Shown: in pieces, positions 96-8,594 of the stretch
Layout: each line of letters opens with the position of its first letter
Numbering within the stretch: the stretch's first letter is position 1
DNA from: Candidatus Hydrogenedentes bacterium CG07_land_8_20_14_0_80_42_17
GTDB lineage: Bacteria; UBA8481
Length of the DNA: 9,568 nucleotides
Direction: 5' to 3'
Assembly (NCBI GenBank): GCA_002780065.1
Contig: PEWQ01000188.1
Coordinates: 1-9,568 of the forward strand
Made by a program: the position numbers and the translations under genes
Notes under the pieces: model-generated
Databases searched by the model: none
What the model was told of the DNA's origin: nothing
Seen by the model: the letters and a program-made list of their open reading frames with translations, nothing else

Positions 96-1763
96 TCATA
101 AAGTTTTTTCTGTCACATCCAAAAAATGAGTTACTCTATTTCTGCCTGAACGTTTCGAGTTATACATTGCAGCGTCCGATTCGTTGATCATTTCATCCTT
201 GCTTCGTCCAAGTTTATACGTAGATAAACCCATGCTGATGGTAACATGCAGTTTCCCGGCAGAGGTTGTAAATGTAAAATCTTCGACAGCTTTTCTCATC
301 CTTTCTGCAACAATCACCGAGCCCTGTTTGTCGGTATTCGGCAGTATCACTGTAAACTCTTCGCCGCCGTACCTGCAAGGAATATCGATTTCTCGAAAAA
401 CTCTGCGAAATATTCGGCTCAGCATTACGAGTACAGCATCCCCGACCTGATGCCCGTAAGTGTCGTTAATATCCTTGAAATGATCTATATCGGCCATTAG
501 AAGCGACAGTGGAGTGCCGGTGCGTTTAGTTCGTATTATCTCCTCTTCCATTCGCTGATGGAAATATCTTGCGATAAAAAGTCGCGTTAATCCATCGGTA
601 ATTGCAAGATCATACAGCCTCGAATTTTCAAACGCTACGGACGAAATTTCAGCAAGCGTCGTTAATGCGGACTCGTCTTCTTCATCAAACGAACTTCCGT
701 CATTTTTCTCGTGGAGATTAACCACGCCGAAACATCTCCCCTTTGCAATAAGCGGAAGCGCAAATAATGACTCCTTGGCGCGATGCTCTCCGGAAAAAGA
801 TTTGTATTCAGAACTATCTTTAAGTTTATCTACTTTGATCGGCTTCCCTGTTGCCATCACTTTTCCGGCAACTCCTTCTCCAATCTTCAGCTTCAGAAAT
901 GATGCCGCGTCTTGCCGCAATCCTACTCCGCCGACAATCTCCAGACATTCAGTCGATTCATTCCAAAGCATTAAACTCATCTTTGAAACGTTGCCCATCT
1001 CGATAAAAGCCTCTACTACAATTTGTATGACTTTGTCGCGAGCAAGTTCGGAAGAAATAATTCTGCCCCATTCTTGCAGTTGAGTGATAACTGCAATTTG
1101 ATTTTCTATTTTAAACGCCATGTCGTTGAAAGTTCCGGCAAGCATTCCAATCTCGTCATTGGAGTTTATCGAAGTTCTGGCTTTGAAATTTTTCTTACCA
1201 AAATCATTCGCGGTATCTCTCAAATGTTCGAGCGGTTTCGTAATAGTTGAAGCGACAAGCCAAGCCGCTATAAGTCCGATTAAAGAAAAAATAACTCCGA
1301 CTGAGACTTGCCTGAGAAGTATATCTCTCTGATCTTTCAAATAACGGGTAAGATTGAAATTAACCTTGATGTAGCCGTAATCTCGGCCTTCGGCAGTCAG
1401 TTTCAGAGGGACTACTCGTTCAATCTGGTTATCATTACTGTCGAACATGCAAGCAGGCGGATATGAAATTAATGGCGCCCATTTTTGGTCAAATACGGAA
1501 ATTTCCAATATGTCATCCTGAGATTCCACTGTCTTTCTAAGTACTGCATTGACATCCGCTAAACGTTCGTCAATATCACCTCCGGATACAACTAGAGCAG
1601 GCAGCACCATTAGTCCTACAGTCGTTCCAATCGTATTCATTCTGCGTTCGAAAGAATCGGCGAGAGTTCTTGAATACTCGTATCTCACAACAATCATATT
1701 CGTGACAAGAATGAGAACTACAATCAGAGTTATCATCCATGTCAATTTGCGCCGTAATGTCAT
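96..1763 (-). CDS. Membrane diguanylate cyclase, HAMP-GAF-GGDEF
   Basis: A 555-residue protein predicted to make cyclic di-GMP from two GTP at the inner membrane. Order of parts: TM1 at about residues 8-26; a periplasmic sensor region of about 125 residues with no family I recognise; TM2 at about 153-175; HAMP at about 172-224 (P177, DEIG at 203-206); GAF at about 240-385; and GGDEF at about 386-550. The active-site signature is intact as GGEEF (466-470), within CRYGGEEF. The allosteric inhibitory site RxxD is present (R457, D460), so product feedback is expected. No EAL or HD-GYP domain is present, so it should be a synthase only. Its ATG overlaps the nucleotidase stop in an ATGA arrangement (1763-1760), implying translational coupling. 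Placement inside a BMC operon is unusual. The signals sensed by the periplasmic region and the GAF domain are unknown. Confidence 0.93.
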   Translation of the reverse strand: MTLRRKLTWMITLIVVLILVTNMIVVRYEYSRTLADSFERRMNTIGTTVGLMVLPALVVSGGDIDERLADVNAVLRKTVESQDDILEISVFDQKWAPLISYPPACMFDSNDNQIERVVPLKLTAEGRDYGYIKVNFNLTRYLKDQRDILLRQVSVGVIFSLIGLIAAWLVASTITKPLEHLRDTANDFGKKNFKARTSINSNDEIGMLAGTFNDMAFKIENQIAVITQLQEWGRIISSELARDKVIQIVVEAFIEMGNVSKMSLMLWNESTECLEIVGGVGLRQDAASFLKLKIGEGVAGKVMATGKPIKVDKLKDSSEYKSFSGEHRAKESLFALPLIAKGRCFGVVNLHEKNDGSSFDEEDESALTTLAEISSVAFENSRLYDLAITDGLTRLFIARYFHQRMEEEIIRTKRTGTPLSLLMADIDHFKDINDTYGHQVGDAVLVMLSRIFRRVFREIDIPCRYGGEEFTVILPNTDKQGSVIVAERMRKAVEDFTFTTSAGKLHVTISMGLSTYKLGRSKDEMINESDAAMYNSKRSGRNRVTHFLDVTEKTL

Positions 1764-3337
1764 CTCTTATTCCTTAAGATCCATCGCTCTTCAGAAACAG
1801 GAGCTACACCACCTGAATGCTTTTCAAAAAATTCTACCTCAGCTTCAAGCAAAGTTCTTCCTGAATCGTAACCTTCAAGTCCTTCAACAAATTCTCTGTA
1901 AGCATCTCCGCCGGCAAAAAGAAACGAATTTGTAGCAACGGAATAAAGTCTGTTCCGCTCAAGCTTCGATCCTGAAATAACAACTTCCATAATTTTTGAA
2001 CCGGCAGGCTTATCCGGATCATAAGTGACTTTCATACCGGAGATCTCGAAAGTCGTGTGTTTGCCATCCAGAGCCTTTTCAAGCAGAGATAAAATTTGAG
2101 CTCCTGTAAGCTTCACCGAACATATTGTATTGCCGAATGGGCTGACCGAGTAAAGAGCTCTCAAACTGATTTCCCCTTCCGAAATGTCGGACCTAATGCC
2201 GCCTTTATTCATAATTCCTATATCCGCGCGAGCATACTCACGCATAATATCGGCCTGATGATTCCCGAGCGGACTTGAAATACCGGTATTCGATCTCCGC
2301 TTGAATGGAGCTAAAGCGCGCCCAACAACACGATTCATTGAACGATCAATCTCCGAAAATTTAGGCTCTAAAAATTTTCTCATCTCTTCGTCCTCTGGAA
2401 AAACTTCGTGACGAAGTTCAACCAACTTATAGTCGAAGGCTCGAATTTGCCTGAGCTGTCTGTCCCATCGGATTCTGATCTCTCCCGGTTCTACTCCTTT
2501 GCCGCCTGTCTGAACGATTCTTACTCCGTTCACAATAACAGGCGAAGGCAATCTGGTATGAGAGTGCCCGCCGATTATCATATCGATTCTGATAGTTCCA
2601 CTCTCAGAAGGTAAATTCGAATCGTAAGCCGCCGCAATTTCAGAATCATGTTCGAACCCGCAATGAGTGAGAAGAATAATAATTTCCGCGCCCCTATTTT
2701 TTAATTCCCATACTGCTCTCTGCGCATTCGGCAGTTCGCGTTCAACAAACCATTCTGCATCGGAATCCAAGTTCGTAACTCGTAAAAGTTCATCGGTTAT
2801 TATTCCGGCAATTCCAATTTTTATTCCGTTCTGCTCGATGATAATCGGAGGTGAAAGTTCGGCTGGAAGCCCTCCTGTCACCCTACTACGCAGGTTGTCT
2901 GCCATAATCGGAAACTTTGCGGTATTGATTAGTTCCTTCATATTGTCGAATCCAAAATCAAATTCGTGGTTGCCTAATGTAGCCGCATCATAGCCAAGCC
3001 TATTCATCAATTCGATCATCAAGTGACCCTTAGACTCATTTCCTTCCGGAGTTCCTTGAAAATAATCGCCGGCGTCGAGAATTAAAAGATTGTCATGACC
3101 TCCGACTTTCTCCGCCCATCGTGAATAAAAAGTCGCAAGCGATGCGGTGCCTCCAATTAAAGACGCCGTATCTGAACTGCTTCTTCTTGATTTGCTCGCT
3201 CTAATGTTGCCGTGTACATCGTTCGTAAAAAGTATTACAAGTTCATCTCTCTGAATTGCGCTTAGCGAACGAAGCGAACACGAATTGAATAAAATAAGAA
3301 AGAAGAAAATAGTAAGAGTAAATCTTCTATTACTCAT
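1760..3337 (-). CDS. 5'-nucleotidase / 2',3'-cyclic phosphodiesterase family lipoprotein (UshA/YfkN-like)
   Basis: A 525-residue two-domain metallophosphoesterase expected to dephosphorylate nucleotides or related phosphoesters outside the cytoplasm. The N-terminus has basic residues, a hydrophobic core (about 6-17) and LFNSC, with C20 as the likely lipidated residue, matching an FCB-style lipobox. Metal-site motifs are all present: NDVHGN (D40, H42), DAGD (D88, D91), GNHE (N123, H124), THCG (H225) and GGHSH (H258, H260). The C-terminal substrate domain shows NKGGIRSDI (about 377-385), SPFGNT (399-404) and NSFLFAGGDAY (about 470-480), typical of nucleoside-binding 5'-nucleotidase C domains. 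Length is close to UshA (about 550). The ATG lies three bases after the stop of the upstream gene, with GAGG of its ribosome site inside that gene's 3' end. The 3' end overlaps the cyclase gene. Substrate preference (NMP, cyclic nucleotide, UDP-sugar) cannot be read from sequence. Confidence 0.92.
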   Translation of the reverse strand: MSNRRFTLTIFFFLILFNSCSLRSLSAIQRDELVILFTNDVHGNIRASKSRRSSSDTASLIGGTASLATFYSRWAEKVGGHDNLLILDAGDYFQGTPEGNESKGHLMIELMNRLGYDAATLGNHEFDFGFDNMKELINTAKFPIMADNLRSRVTGGLPAELSPPIIIEQNGIKIGIAGIITDELLRVTNLDSDAEWFVERELPNAQRAVWELKNRGAEIIILLTHCGFEHDSEIAAAYDSNLPSESGTIRIDMIIGGHSHTRLPSPVIVNGVRIVQTGGKGVEPGEIRIRWDRQLRQIRAFDYKLVELRHEVFPEDEEMRKFLEPKFSEIDRSMNRVVGRALAPFKRRSNTGISSPLGNHQADIMREYARADIGIMNKGGIRSDISEGEISLRALYSVSPFGNTICSVKLTGAQILSLLEKALDGKHTTFEISGMKVTYDPDKPAGSKIMEVVISGSKLERNRLYSVATNSFLFAGGDAYREFVEGLEGYDSGRTLLEAEVEFFEKHSGGVAPVSEERWILRNKR

Positions 3338-3340
3338 CGG

Positions 3341-3826
3341 TTATTCCTCAATGATTCTAACTCCGCTTCGCTCGGCATTGTCTCTGGCTAATGGCGTGAT
3401 TCTGTCTTTCTTTGACAGCCTTATAACTTTTTCTCCGAGCATAATTTTATCGATATCGGAAGCAGTAATTAATTTTCGATCATTTGCAGAGACAGGATTA
3501 ATTTTAGGAACTAGAGATTCTGTTCGGCTCAAATAAGCCACAACTGAAGACATAACAGCTTCAGCAAGCATTGCAGCATCTCCGGAATTCAAATCAGCGC
3601 TCAAGGTTTGAGTAATTTTTATTCCCAGAGTTTCAGCTCTATCACGTGCGGCAGGAGTTATTATCGCTCCGGGCGGAATCTCAAGCACTTTGCTTCCTCT
3701 TCGTTTCGCTTGAGCTACCATGGATTCCGAAACAACAGGGCGTTTTATTCGAGGCGTCGCTGTCGCAGACGAAAGCGACTTAACTACTTCTTCTTCAACA
3801 ACACGTCTTATTGTGACGTAATCCAT
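3341..3826 (-). CDS. BMC-associated protein of unknown function with duplicated ITPxARD motif
   Basis: A 161-residue protein with no catalytic motif I recognise. Residues 1-20 (MDYVTIRRVVEEEVVKSLSS) form an amphipathic helix of the encapsulation-peptide type. Two 41-residue segments, 31-71 and 118-158, align without gaps. Each ends in the motif ITP-x-ARD-x-AE-x-x-G-[IV]-x-I (56-71 and 143-158), and I count 13 of 41 identical positions. A similar 'LTPxAR' motif occurs near the N-terminus of EutT-type corrinoid adenosyltransferases and in other BMC accessory proteins, but the adenosyltransferase core is absent. A second hydrophobic helix lies at about 85-100. It sits 33 bases after the shell gene pduT and three bases before the nucleotidase gene. 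A lumen scaffold or shell-cargo adaptor is a guess; no biochemical role can be assigned. Confidence 0.85.
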   Translation of the reverse strand: MDYVTIRRVVEEEVVKSLSSATATPRIKRPVVSESMVAQAKRRGSKVLEIPPGAIITPAARDRAETLGIKITQTLSADLNSGDAAMLAEAVMSSVVAYLSRTESLVPKINPVSANDRKLITASDIDKIMLGEKVIRLSKKDRITPLARDNAERSGVRIIEE

Positions 3827-3859: not shown

Positions 3860-4414
3860 CTAAAATATCGCCTTTATGAGTTCTTCATGAGGCTGAGGTA
3901 TAACGATCGAAGAATGCAATAATCCATTTTGTCGAGCTATTTCGCCCGCCGCACGCATCGCATCTTTAACAGGGCCAACTTGACCTGTAAGTATGAAAAA
4001 ACCTTTTCCGCCTATTCCAGTTGCAAGCCTCGCCTCGATAAGTTTTACCTCGGCCTCTTTCACCGCCGCATCGGCAGAGCGAATCAGGCACGCTACAGAA
4101 TATGTTTCCAATACTCCAACAGCCTGCAATTTCTTTACGACTACCGCACCGGCTAGAGCGGGAAATACATCTTCATGAACACGGGGAATGACGGCCGAAT
4201 CTACAACTGTTGTCGCAGCTCTTTTCTTTCCGGCTGAAATTGCAGTTTCTATGGCTCCGACTTCACCGCGTAAAACAATAATGAATTTTCCGGGGCAGAC
4301 AGGATGCGCATCAATAAGTGTCACCTCCGCAGATTTCAACATTGCATCAGCAGATTCAATCCCGAGCGCAATCGAGTTTGTCTCTAAAATTCCAACCGCC
4401 GAAAAATCACTCAT
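3860..4414 (-). CDS. pduT: PduT-type BMC-T shell protein with Fe-S pore cysteine
   Basis: A tandem two-BMC-domain protein that would form pseudohexameric trimers in the compartment shell. Domain 1 (about residues 5-90) starts AVGILETNSIALG; domain 2 (about 95-184) starts AVGVLETYSVA. Both domains end in the usual shell signature (VIPRVHE and VIPQPHE). C40, in VCPGKF, aligns with the PduT cysteine (C38 in Salmonella) that binds a 4Fe-4S cluster at the trimer pore. I choose the ATG at 4414 over a GTG at 4423. GAGGTG (4426-4421) makes a Shine-Dalgarno sequence six bases before the ATG and overlaps that GTG, and the resulting 184 residues equal the usual PduT length. The gene directly follows pduS, its known redox partner in Pdu systems, so trans-shell electron transfer is the likely role. 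Confidence 0.95.
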   Translation of the reverse strand: MSDFSAVGILETNSIALGIESADAMLKSAEVTLIDAHPVCPGKFIIVLRGEVGAIETAISAGKKRAATTVVDSAVIPRVHEDVFPALAGAVVVKKLQAVGVLETYSVACLIRSADAAVKEAEVKLIEARLATGIGGKGFFILTGQVGPVKDAMRAAGEIARQNGLLHSSIVIPQPHEELIKAIF

Positions 4415-4420
4415 CGTGTT

Positions 4421-4426
4421 CACCTC
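4421..4426 (-). promoter_or_regulatory. Ribosome binding site that fixes the pduT start
   Basis: GAGGTG on the minus strand, six bases from the ATG at 4414. The only other start candidate, GTG at 4423, lies within this site and has no comparable ribosome site of its own, so the shorter protein is preferred. Confidence 0.7.
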
Positions 4427-4506: not shown

Positions 4507-5838
4507 CTACAACTCACTCTTAATCTCTACAACATCGCTCACTTTTGTTACCACTCCGTCAATCGAAGCGTGAACTCTAGCGCCTAAAGCCGATTCGGGA
4601 ATCTCACCGATGAGATCTCCTTTTTTGACCTTTGACTTTTCCTTTACAACTGCTCTTGCCGGAGCTCCTACATGTTGAGAAAGCGGAATCTTGACCGTCT
4701 TCGGCAAAAGTATTTCCGTCGCCATAGGCGCCTCAACATCCCATTCGGTAAGATGCAGGCCTTGAACTATCCGCTCAACCGGAATTTTTCTGTCCGCTAT
4801 TGATGGGTGAATTGAACCCGTCTCACCGCGAAATGGATTCTGAATTTTATTCTCTGCCATCTTTCTCTTCACAGCTTGCATTACTTCTCTAGGCCTGAGA
4901 TCCATCGGGCACGACCACAAAGTGCATATTCCGCATTCACAACAAATTGCTCCGGTCAAAGCAAAACCTTCCATTGGCGGCGGTTCTAAAGCAAATGCCG
5001 ACGCCCGCATCGCACGGTGAGGCAGCACGCGGTGTCCGAGCAAATAACGCGGACAATATTTTGTGCAGTCTTCGCATGACGTGCAAGCCGCCGCCGCTTT
5101 ATTCCATGATATTCTCATCGACTCCATTCGCTTTTTTACGTAAGGGTGTTCGGTCGGAAAAAGCAGTATGCCTGAAGTTCTTTTCGTAATCGAATGAGTG
5201 AGTTCGACAAATTTTCCCATCATGGGTCCGCCATCAATGATTACATAATTTTCAACTGACGCGCCTCCGGCTTTCTCAATTAAATCCGATACCGGAGTTC
5301 CGATTGGAGCAAGAAATGTGGTCGGATGCCGAACTGCTCCGCCTACTGTCACATATCGCTCGGTCACAGGTGCCCCTGAATCAGCGTCATCAATCCAGCA
5401 TAATGTATGAACATTTTGAACAAGGCATCCGACATTCATTGGCAAAGAAGCTTCGGGAATTACTCTGCCCGTCACTTCGTAAACTAACGTCACTTCATCG
5501 CCTGCAGGATAAAATGAACCGAGAGGAAAAAGTTCAACCCCGAATTTTTTTGCATGTTTTTCCAATTCCGACCATGCTGATTTATATTTTTTTTTCAAAG
5601 CAATTATCGCGCGCTTCGCGCCTGTTGCCCCGCGTACCTTTGCAATTCCAGAAACAACCTTTTCAGCAAATTTAGCCATTATCTGCTGATCGACCCGCAA
5701 CAGCGGTTCGCATTCAGCTCCGTTCGCAATAACAATTTCAACCTTTGCAGAAATTTTTACATGAGTGGGAAACCCTGCTCCGCCGGCTCCAACTACTCCA
5801 GCATTGCGAACAGAGTCTTGTAAAGAATTAGATTTCAT
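4507..5838 (-). CDS. pduS: PduS-type Fe-S flavoprotein (RnfC/NuoF-like cobalamin reductase or NADH electron carrier)
   Basis: A 443-residue lumen electron carrier predicted to oxidise NADH through FMN and Fe-S centres. In Pdu systems it supports cob(III)alamin reduction and interacts with PduT. The N-terminal RnfC/NuoF-like domain has the glycine-rich VVGAGGAGFPTHVK (15-28) and NGAECEPLL (39-47). A SLBB-like segment follows around 160-215. Two 4Fe-4S motifs follow: C252-x2-C255-x2-C258-x3-C262-P and C299/C302-x2-C305-x4-C310-P. The C-terminal part (about 385-443) looks like a barrel-sandwich (biotinyl-like) hybrid domain. The ATG is 17 bases after the aldehyde dehydrogenase stop. I see no Shine-Dalgarno sequence, and an in-frame TAA four codons upstream blocks a longer start, so translation may depend on coupling. 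No B12 enzyme is visible here, so NAD+ regeneration is as plausible as cobalamin reduction. Confidence 0.94.
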   Translation of the reverse strand: MKSNSLQDSVRNAGVVGAGGAGFPTHVKISAKVEIVIANGAECEPLLRVDQQIMAKFAEKVVSGIAKVRGATGAKRAIIALKKKYKSAWSELEKHAKKFGVELFPLGSFYPAGDEVTLVYEVTGRVIPEASLPMNVGCLVQNVHTLCWIDDADSGAPVTERYVTVGGAVRHPTTFLAPIGTPVSDLIEKAGGASVENYVIIDGGPMMGKFVELTHSITKRTSGILLFPTEHPYVKKRMESMRISWNKAAAACTSCEDCTKYCPRYLLGHRVLPHRAMRASAFALEPPPMEGFALTGAICCECGICTLWSCPMDLRPREVMQAVKRKMAENKIQNPFRGETGSIHPSIADRKIPVERIVQGLHLTEWDVEAPMATEILLPKTVKIPLSQHVGAPARAVVKEKSKVKKGDLIGEIPESALGARVHASIDGVVTKVSDVVEIKSEL

Positions 5839-5855: not shown

Positions 5856-7277
5856 TCAATAAATCCTCAGCGCTCCAACCATAACGAGTCTCCTCTTGCG
5901 AGCAAAATTTCTTGGAGACGTGCAACCTTCACCGGTCGGAGTTGTAATGCTCCACGCGGTCGGTCCCTCGCCTTCAAGTCCAAGCCCGTTAAAACAGCTC
6001 CCGTTCACAACAAAGATGGAGCAGTTCGCCGCTCTGCCGAATATGGTGACATGTTCTAGATTTGTCGAATGAATCATAGCAGTATGCGAATAGCCGTGCT
6101 CAGCTTCCAGAGCCCAACTCATCGCTTCGTTAAAATCACTGCATCTTACTAGTGGAATAATCGGCATCAGCTGCTCGGTCTGAACTAGAGGATGATCCTT
6201 ATTTCGGCCTACATCGCACACCAACAGCTTTGTCGATTCAGGCACCGTAATTCCGATTCTAGCCGCCAATGATTTAGCCGACCGTCCGACAGAGTCACGC
6301 TTCGGTTTAGTGCGAGGACCATGAGGACCATCGTAATTTTCAAGGCATGTCTTCAAGAGTCTGTCGAGTTCAAACTGCCGCAATTCATAAGTGCCGTTCT
6401 TCTTCATCTCTGAAATTAGTTTGTCTGCAATAGAGTCGACAGCAAATATTTCTTTCTCGGCAATGCAGACGATGTTGTTGTCGAGCGACGCTCCTCTAAC
6501 AATTCCGCGCCCCGCATTCGCCAAGTTTGCTGTTTCGTCAACAATGACCGGAGGGTTGCCTGGCCCCGCCGCTAGGCACCTTTTCCCGACCGTCAGCGCG
6601 GCTTTAACAACCTCGCCGCCGCCTGTAACTACCAACAATTTAACTTTTTTGTGATTGAAAATTATACTTCCTGTCTCCAAAGTCGGATACGCAACTGTAG
6701 TCAACATATTCTGAGGACCGCCGTTATCCGTTATTGCGCGGTTCAATAAAGAGATCGTTCTTGCCGAGACTCGCTTCGCGCTCGGATGACAATTGTAAAC
6801 GATCGAGTTTCCCGCAGAAAGAGCGCAAATTGCATTGTTCGATACAGTCTCCGACGGATTCGTACTCGGAGTGATTGAACCGACAATTCCAAACGGTGTG
6901 AATTCTTCTATTGTCACGCCGTGATCGCCTGAATAAACAATATGAGGAATGTCCTCGATGCCGGGCGTCTTCTTAGCTACAAGAATATTCTTCAATACCT
7001 TCTGCTCAACATCTCCCATTCCGGTTTCTTGAACGGCAAGATCGGCAAGTTCTCTCGCTGAATCAATAATCTTTTTGCGCATCGCCTTAATAATTTCGCC
7101 GCGGCGCTCAAGCGTAAGCTGAACCCAAACTTTTTGAGCAGATGCCGCCGCTTCAATCGCATCTTCCATTCGAGTAAAAATACCATCGGATGAATCAGGC
7201 TGGAGTGCAGTCGGAGTTTCGTGCCCTAATCTTTCGATAACCTTTTGTGTTATCGCAGTAATCTCTCGATCATTCAT
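5856..7277 (-). CDS. pduP: CoA-acylating aldehyde dehydrogenase (PduP/EutE family)
   Basis: A 473-residue enzyme converting an aldehyde, NAD+ and CoA to acyl-CoA and NADH inside the compartment. Residues 1-18 (MNDREITAITQKVIERLG) form an amphipathic encapsulation helix, joined by a linker (about 19-30) to the dehydrogenase body, as in PduP. Conserved signatures: TPSTNP (136-141), VVTGGGEVV (about 216-224), GPGNPPVIVD (238-247) and the catalytic Cys C271 in DNNIVCIAEKE. Length matches PduP (about 460). The ATG at 7277 is supported by AAGGAAAGG eight bases upstream. The gene follows the shell protein by 87 bp, which include a hairpin, and precedes pduS by 17 bp. The symbol is a family-level choice: acetaldehyde (EutE-like), propionaldehyde (PduP-like) or another aldehyde cannot be told apart without the signature enzyme. 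Confidence 0.96.
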   Translation of the reverse strand: MNDREITAITQKVIERLGHETPTALQPDSSDGIFTRMEDAIEAAASAQKVWVQLTLERRGEIIKAMRKKIIDSARELADLAVQETGMGDVEQKVLKNILVAKKTPGIEDIPHIVYSGDHGVTIEEFTPFGIVGSITPSTNPSETVSNNAICALSAGNSIVYNCHPSAKRVSARTISLLNRAITDNGGPQNMLTTVAYPTLETGSIIFNHKKVKLLVVTGGGEVVKAALTVGKRCLAAGPGNPPVIVDETANLANAGRGIVRGASLDNNIVCIAEKEIFAVDSIADKLISEMKKNGTYELRQFELDRLLKTCLENYDGPHGPRTKPKRDSVGRSAKSLAARIGITVPESTKLLVCDVGRNKDHPLVQTEQLMPIIPLVRCSDFNEAMSWALEAEHGYSHTAMIHSTNLEHVTIFGRAANCSIFVVNGSCFNGLGLEGEGPTAWSITTPTGEGCTSPRNFARKRRLVMVGALRIY

Positions 7278-7364: not shown

Positions 7365-7658
7365 TTACTTCTTCGATTCGTCTTCAGTTACTCTGATTGG
7401 AAATACATCCTTGATGTTCGGATGAGGCCGAGGAATAACGTGAACTGAAACTAGTTCTCCAACCTTCTCCGCCGCGGCCGCGCCGGCATCAGTTGCGGCT
7501 TTGCATGCCGCTACATCACCACGCACAAACGTGATAACTAGTCCGCCGCCAACCTTCTCGTATCCGACAAGTAAAACCTTTGCGGCTTTAACCATGGCAT
7601 CTGCAGCTTCAACTGCGCCAACCATACCCTTTGTTTCAATCATTCCTAGAGCTTCCAC
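7365..7658 (-). CDS. Hexameric BMC-H shell protein (PduA/PduJ/EutM-like)
   Basis: A 97-residue single BMC-domain protein that tiles the flat faces of the compartment shell. [19 protein letters not shown] (2-20) is the canonical start of the fold. The edge lysine K24 (PduA K26) and the edge arginine R77 (PduA R79) are both present, so normal sheet assembly is expected. The pore loop reads K35-V-G-G38-G; G38 replaces the PduA pore serine S40, and EutM-like pores also use glycine here. VHVIPRPH (72-79) closes the domain. An acidic and basic tail (about 90-97, TEDESKK) extends past it. The start is GTG at 7658, backed by AAAGGAGG five bases upstream and by alignment to PduA. It has one of the strongest ribosome sites of the window and its own promoter candidate, fitting high expression. 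Confidence 0.97.
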
Positions 7659-7940: not shown

Positions 7941-8594
7941 TCACCTCAAAAGTAGTTCGACAGTATCTCCGCTCTTCAAATCGAATGCGTTTGATTCGTC
8001 GGTATCGAGATGCAGTTCAAATTTGTGAGCGTCGCCTACTCGAGCTAAAATGTTTTCAATAATTCCGCCCCGAATTCCGCCGACTCTCACGCGAACAATT
8101 TGTTTGTCTCTCAAGCCTAATGCCTCGCCCTCTGATGTGTGACAATGAAGATGTCTTGAAGCAAGAATAACTCCCTCATTCAAAACAATTGAACCTTTTG
8201 GTCCAATTATTACACAGCCTGGCGAGCCGGCAATATCTCCTGATTGACGAATAGGAGAAGCAATTCCTAATGCAAATGAATCAGTTTTGGAAATTTCAAC
8301 TTGAGTATGTTTTCGTTCAGGACCTATGATTCTTACGTTGTGAAAAACTCCATTCGATGTAGCAATCGAAACTGTCTCAACAGTAGCGAATTGGTCCGGC
8401 TGAAGGAGATATCTCATAGGAGTAAGTTTGTGCCCGGCTCCGAAAAGAATTTGAGTATGTTCAGAGGTTAGATGGCAGTGCCTGTTCGAGACTCCCACTT
8501 TTACAAATCTCGAAGGGTTGTTGTCGACTAAAGATTTGCCCGCTAAATTCCGAACAACATTATCGACTACTCTGCTTATTAGTGCATCATCCAT
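7941..8594 (-). CDS. pduL: PduL-type phosphate acyltransferase (phosphotransacylase)
   Basis: A 217-residue BMC lumen enzyme converting acyl-CoA and phosphate to acyl-phosphate and CoA, so recycling CoA for the aldehyde dehydrogenase. Residues 1-19 form an amphipathic encapsulation helix (MDDALISRVVDNVVRNLAG), the version typical of BMC-targeted PduL. Family signatures: VGVSNRHCHL (33-42), LLQPDQFA (63-70), GPERKHTQVEIS (91-102), ASRHLHCH (145-152) and HLDTDESNAF (195-204). Metal-ligand candidates H39, H41, E100, H148, H150 and H195 and the phosphate-site R94 line up with the ligands I recall from the Rhodopseudomonas enzyme at a constant offset of nine, so it should be active. I find no clear Shine-Dalgarno sequence before the ATG at 8594. 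It is the first gene of the operon, 282 bp ahead of the shell gene and 62 bp from the divergent hydrolase. Confidence 0.96.
   Translation of the reverse strand: MDDALISRVVDNVVRNLAGKSLVDNNPSRFVKVGVSNRHCHLTSEHTQILFGAGHKLTPMRYLLQPDQFATVETVSIATSNGVFHNVRIIGPERKHTQVEISKTDSFALGIASPIRQSGDIAGSPGCVIIGPKGSIVLNEGVILASRHLHCHTSEGEALGLRDKQIVRVRVGGIRGGIIENILARVGDAHKFELHLDTDESNAFDLKSGDTVELLLR

Follow-up and report, generated by a model that had tools for sequence, protein, structure and literature searches.

A UshA-type 5'-nucleotidase gene within a probable SPU-type microcompartment operon of Candidatus Hydrogenedentes

In Candidatus Hydrogenedentes bacterium CG07_land_8_20_14_0_80_42_17, a microcompartment (BMC) operon contains the genes of a 5'-nucleotidase and of a diguanylate cyclase. 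Judged from sequence, the locus is probably the main one of a compartment of the sugar-phosphate-utilisation (SPU) type (probability about 0.7), dispersed over the genome, with its signature enzymes at satellite sites and a putative envelope nucleotidase and the cyclase embedded in its operon. The window analysed here, a stretch of 9568 bp, is one complete contig (C141) of a fragmented 2.39 Mb draft genome (G000, 87% completeness) with no sequence to the left of position 1, and other compartment-related genes lie on further contigs of the same draft. The within-phylum comparison involved two genomes, that of the window and that of Candidatus Hydrogenedentota J006 (G001), which belongs to the same phylum and to a different family. 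The window holds eight genes, all on the minus strand, listed in the order of transcription:

7941..8594, minus strand: PduL phosphotransacylase (PF06130, 230 bits), with the N-terminal targeting helix MDDALISRVVDNVVRNL
7365..7658, minus strand: EutM-like BMC-H shell protein (PF00936, 97 bits; EutM model over cut-off; 91% identity to the G001 copy)
5856..7277, minus strand: BMC acylating aldehyde dehydrogenase (AldDH) with a targeting helix (NCBIfam PRK15398.1, 599 bits, over cut-off; near SPU AldDHs in the tree)
4507..5838, minus strand: RnfC/PduS-like flavo-iron-sulfur protein (TIGR01945 over cut-off; Pfam Complex1_51K, SLBB and Fer4)
3860..4423, minus strand: PduT-like BMC-T shell protein with two BMC domains (PF00936 twice; best match TIGR02526)
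3341..3826, minus strand: H161, an accessory protein of 161 aa with a targeting helix and two EutQ/PduM-type ITPxAxD modules
1760..3337, minus strand: UshA-type 5'-nucleotidase with a putative signal peptide, a probable lipoprotein (Pfam domains, solved relatives and motifs; same position in G001)
96..1763, minus strand: membrane diguanylate cyclase, the last gene of the operon (periplasmic region, HAMP, GAF and GGDEF, 148 bits; G001 counterpart 50% identical)

The aldehyde dehydrogenase and PduL on which the original prediction relied both have model matches. H161 gave weak matches to EutQ, PduM and TIGR02536 in the model search.

The nucleotidase ORF encodes 525 aa from an ATG start. Both Pfam domains pass their cut-offs (Metallophos, 46 bits; 5_nucleotid_C, 134.5 bits), and the nearest solved structures are bacterial and animal 5'-nucleotidases (3ivd, 3.5e-59; 2z1a, 1.7e-44; CD73; E. 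coli UshA, 8e-29). The active-site motifs NDVHGN, AGD, GNHE and GHSH are all intact, as are the C-terminal nucleotide-binding motifs GGIR, PFGN and NSF. The protein is therefore a complete 5'-nucleotidase, in agreement with the UshA-type enzyme that had been proposed. It had also been called a lipoprotein, which it probably is: a hydrophobic N-terminal signal and a Cys at residue 20, set in a relaxed lipobox (FNSC, and FQAC in G001), were recognized by eye. We infer both the envelope location and the substrate specificity of the enzyme. The gene starts after a 3-nt gap from the upstream H161 gene (which ends at 3341) and ends in a 4-nt overlap with the cyclase gene (which starts at 1763), so that its predicted setting between a BMC accessory gene and a further operon member holds to the nucleotide.

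The corresponding row in G001 reads BMC-H, BMC-P, AldDH, H161, 5'-nucleotidase and cyclase. The order AldDH, H161, 5'-nucleotidase, GGDEF is kept, with protein identities of 69, 45, 45 and 50% respectively. As this order recurs in another family of the phylum, chance placement of the nucleotidase is unlikely; with two genomes compared, its conservation in the operon amounts to two observations. In the cyclase (window 96-1763) the RxxD and GGEEF motifs are intact, and in both families the gene is conserved as the last one of the BMC operon. Control of a BMC operon by c-di-GMP would be unusual. A literature search on nucleotidases with microcompartments returned nothing relevant, and no BMC operon with a 5'-nucleotidase or a diguanylate cyclase was reported in the literature found, which for the cyclase had not been searched by name.

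SPU loci are known, and a role in the catabolism of DNA products has been proposed for them (Axen 2014, PMC4207490; Sutter 2021, PMC8217296); no experimental study of this role was found in the literature searched. A tree was calculated from 24 BMC AldDHs, the labels of the non-SPU comparators being read by eye from adjacent ORFs. The AldDHs of the two Hydrogenedentes genomes form one clade, and the nearest rows by path are SPU. The PDU, fuculose and GRM rows fall in a separate supported group and PVM in another, with the query AldDHs outside both. Because the SPU rows form a grade, the placement within the SPU part of the tree is left loose.

Further compartment genes were located outside the operon. 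In the window genome DeoC lies on C47, RpiB on C99 and BMC-P on C143, the signature enzymes being outside the operon; the G001 genes are likewise dispersed, with the exception of RpiB, which is on the operon contig. Each genome contains one copy of DeoC, directly upstream of the phosphopentomutase gene deoB and matching TIGR00126 deoC at 277-297 bits. The N-terminus of the G001 enzyme, VNVDKMLVERITREVVRRLE, is a helix of the BMC-targeting type; its amphipathic moment exceeds that of all 82 background N-termini and is the strongest among the proteins tested. Behind the helix comes a domain with homology to the PF02441 flavoprotein of a Geosporobacter PDU locus (hhalign probability 96%). A direct Pfam search gave no name for this N-terminal domain, and the homology to the BMC flavoprotein comes from hhalign alone. 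The window-genome DeoC has the same flavoprotein-type domain, cut by the contig end, so that the helix evidence comes from the G001 copy only. The fused genes, with the BMC flavoprotein-type domain N-terminal to DeoC, lie at L033:1428-2960 (G001) and L032:2-1345. Long DeoC N-termini weakly similar to the fused domain were also seen in L094, L098 and L101, with L094 and L101 over the threshold.

Each genome has two RpiB genes, and one of each pair carries a C-terminal module, TARD..LLTPLA, that is also found at the end of H161. In G001 the tailed RpiB shares a contig with the BMC operon. BMC-associated RpiB proteins with a C-terminal module common to H161, EutQ and PduM are encoded at L049:2102-2752, L039:1483-2064 and L102:11582-12250; this module may be a cargo-recruitment tag distinct from the encapsulation helices. 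The tailed RpiB (L049:2102-2752) has RGIVIDGAGSPSAIVANK where the housekeeping copy (L036:1480-1920) has RGIVFGGSGNGEAMSANK. This alters the position normally occupied by the catalytic Cys or Glu, and the activity of the tailed protein may therefore differ. RpiB and DeoC are fused in one polypeptide at L115:4179-5483 and L116:5253-6602; the L115 fusion belongs to an SPU-like locus that also has shell genes.

The SPU-like type suggested by the original prediction is thus supported by the targeting helix of the G001 DeoC, by the RpiB tail shared with H161 and by the branching of the AldDH with SPU. The operon could also serve another substrate (a diol, ethanolamine, a glycyl-radical substrate or fuculose), its signature enzyme being in the missing part of the genome and the DeoC and nucleoside genes belonging to ordinary salvage. 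The operon indeed has no signature enzyme, 13% of the genome is missing, and PDU loci were among the nearest named AldDHs in a small pattern scan. Against this reading stand the targeting helix of DeoC and its BMC flavoprotein domain, the second, tailed RpiB, and the position of the AldDH outside the PDU, fuculose and GRM group. Diol dehydratase had no match in either genome, but the control was equally silent and the result is thus no evidence of absence. A rival signature enzyme, which had been named as the finding that would speak against the proposal, is only partly excluded. We consider a different substrate highly improbable.

All three classes of shell protein are present in the window genome, with one BMC-H, one BMC-T and three BMC-P. 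The latter are three adjacent EutN_CcmL genes on contig C143. A FAD oxidase and an SDR behind them were set aside, since they have the appearance of DprE1/DprE2-type cell-wall genes. On contig C143 of G001 (L029:2194-6819), about 3 kb from BMC-T/RnfC, lie genes for an NCS1 nucleobase permease, a beta-ureidopropionase-like carbon-nitrogen hydrolase and a xanthine/uracil-type permease, which possibly point to nucleobase use. A row of three BMC-P genes together with a satellite aldolase recalls HO loci, which have a BMC-P triplet and an aldolase with an N-terminal extension at a satellite site (PMC8217296); here too the aldolase is off the main locus and extended at its N-terminus. An HO-type compartment instead of an SPU one is nevertheless improbable. 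An RpiB partner is present here, the operon order is that of SPU operons, and the BMC-T is PduT-like and single. Neither a second nor a dp-type BMC-T was found, each genome having one BMC-T and the window genome being a draft of 87% completeness.

The SPU reading is also consistent with the nucleoside genes. In both genomes a purine nucleoside phosphorylase (punA), a pyrimidine nucleoside phosphorylase (pdp) and recJ form one operon:

L050:576-5032: punA-pdp-recJ operon, window genome (contig C40)
L054:6064-10448: punA-pdp-recJ operon, G001

The RecJ of this operon has an inserted DnaQ/RNase T exonuclease domain, and DNA degradation seems to be wired to nucleoside phosphorolysis through the three genes. 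In the window genome they are followed by a gene for a DUF3006 protein. Uridine phosphorylase (udp) and cytidine deaminase (cdd) also occur together in that genome. The deoC, rpiB, nucleoside phosphorylase and phosphopentomutase genes that the original prediction expected elsewhere in the genome were all found, and are conserved in G001. The nucleoside transporter expected with them was not: a search of both genomes for the Bmp-type ABC transporter family gave no member. For the enzymatic steps from nucleosides to acetyl-CoA and acetyl-phosphate, a gene is present for each in the window genome. With all the enzyme steps tested between nucleosides and acetyl-CoA encoded, the lineage probably eats the sugar of DNA.

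For comparison with other phyla, 40 DeoC neighbourhoods were fetched from 386 genomes. Several of them are full SPU operons, and L086, L087 and L091 have the order BMC-H, PduL, BMC-P, AldDH, RnfC, BMC-T, H161-like, RpiB, BMC-P, BMC-P, DeoC. The H161 ortholog lies between BMC-T and RpiB in these canonical operons and has 76-81 aa with one module copy, versus two in the H161 of the window. The AldDH-RnfC-BMC-T-H161 order of the window matches these operons. As far as H161 the window therefore has the gene order of SPU, and the nucleotidase then stands at the RpiB position. In three loci with BMC genes (L103, L113 and L123) Pdp or Cdd is encoded beside DeoC, which ties BMC DeoC to nucleosides independently.

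The 386 genomes were also searched with the window nucleotidase as query, a DeoC being counted as BMC-linked when its stretch contained shell or BMC AldDH genes. A strong match was obtained in 18 of the 22 genomes with BMC-linked DeoC, compared to 47 of the 151 other genomes with DeoC (Fisher p 8e-6), and in 7 of 211 genomes without DeoC at the threshold. Counted by family, 10 of 13 with BMC-linked DeoC had the nucleotidase. This enrichment is suggestive and not proof, since sets and thresholds were fixed after the data had been seen and the genomes are related.

The compartment may be of the SPU type and the nucleotidase an ordinary phosphate or nucleotide scavenger, merely co-transcribed and with no special feeding role. 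UshA-type enzymes also serve in phosphate or UDP-sugar scavenging, and the relatives of UshA are generalists. Each of the two Hydrogenedentes genomes has a single UshA-type nucleotidase at E < 1e-50, and this sole strong match must serve general roles. Moreover, a search of the 40 DeoC neighbourhoods for a 5'-nucleotidase gave no match, even with a threshold of E < 0.1. Against simple co-transcription stand the tight spacing, the order, which is kept in both families although protein identity is only 45%, and the co-occurrence of the nucleotidase with BMC-linked DeoC. We regard the scavenger explanation as unlikely.

The genes, their order, their conservation in two families and the targeting-type helices suggest how an SPU-type compartment of this kind might work. 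The envelope 5'-nucleotidase would convert extracellular nucleotides to nucleosides. After uptake of these, purine and pyrimidine nucleoside phosphorylases would yield (deoxy)ribose-1-phosphate and phosphopentomutase DeoB the 5-phosphate, from which DeoC inside the shell would produce acetaldehyde. Acetaldehyde would be converted to acetyl-CoA by AldDH and then to acetyl-phosphate by PduL. Electrons may exit via RnfC and the PduT-like BMC-T, and RpiB may be encapsulated through its C-terminal tail. Through the terminal cyclase the system would be connected with c-di-GMP behaviour, for example attachment to detritus. Encapsulation, flux, regulation and the role of the nucleotidase as a feeder of the compartment are all predicted features of this scheme. 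More tentatively, envelope nucleotidase, c-di-GMP switch and microcompartment could be co-transcribed as a single regulon for extracellular DNA. The nucleotidase would then be a committed feeder of the organelle, and nucleotide capture and compartmented deoxyribose cleavage would have evolved as one unit.

SPU is one of the most common BMC types in environmental genomes, and the role in DNA catabolism has so far been proposed from DeoC and RpiB alone. The operon structure described here links the organelle to a nucleotide enzyme predicted to act outside the cell, and most of the inward route from nucleosides is encoded in the genome. The substrate guess for SPU thereby becomes a testable route, with nucleotidases, nucleoside phosphorylases and RecJ-type exonucleases as candidates for the SPU regulon.

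Compared with the UshA/CD73 family, the window nucleotidase has both domains, the metal- and nucleotide-binding motifs and a putative export signal in common, and differs by its setting inside a BMC operon. Among the SPU features, a DeoC-type aldolase (pfam01791), RpiB (pfam02502) and AldDH and PduL with targeting peptides are present, whereas the signature enzymes and the shell genes do not form a single cluster. Published SPU descriptions permit fission into satellite loci (PMC4207490, PMC8217296), so the dispersal makes the fit less neat and leaves the SPU type standing. AldDH, PduL, RnfC/PduS, the shell set, the DeoC-type aldolase, RpiB and the operon order AldDH-RnfC-BMC-T-H161 are shared with SPU loci. 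Unlike in those loci, DeoC, RpiB and BMC-P are here on separate contigs, and the operon includes genes for a 5'-nucleotidase and a diguanylate cyclase.
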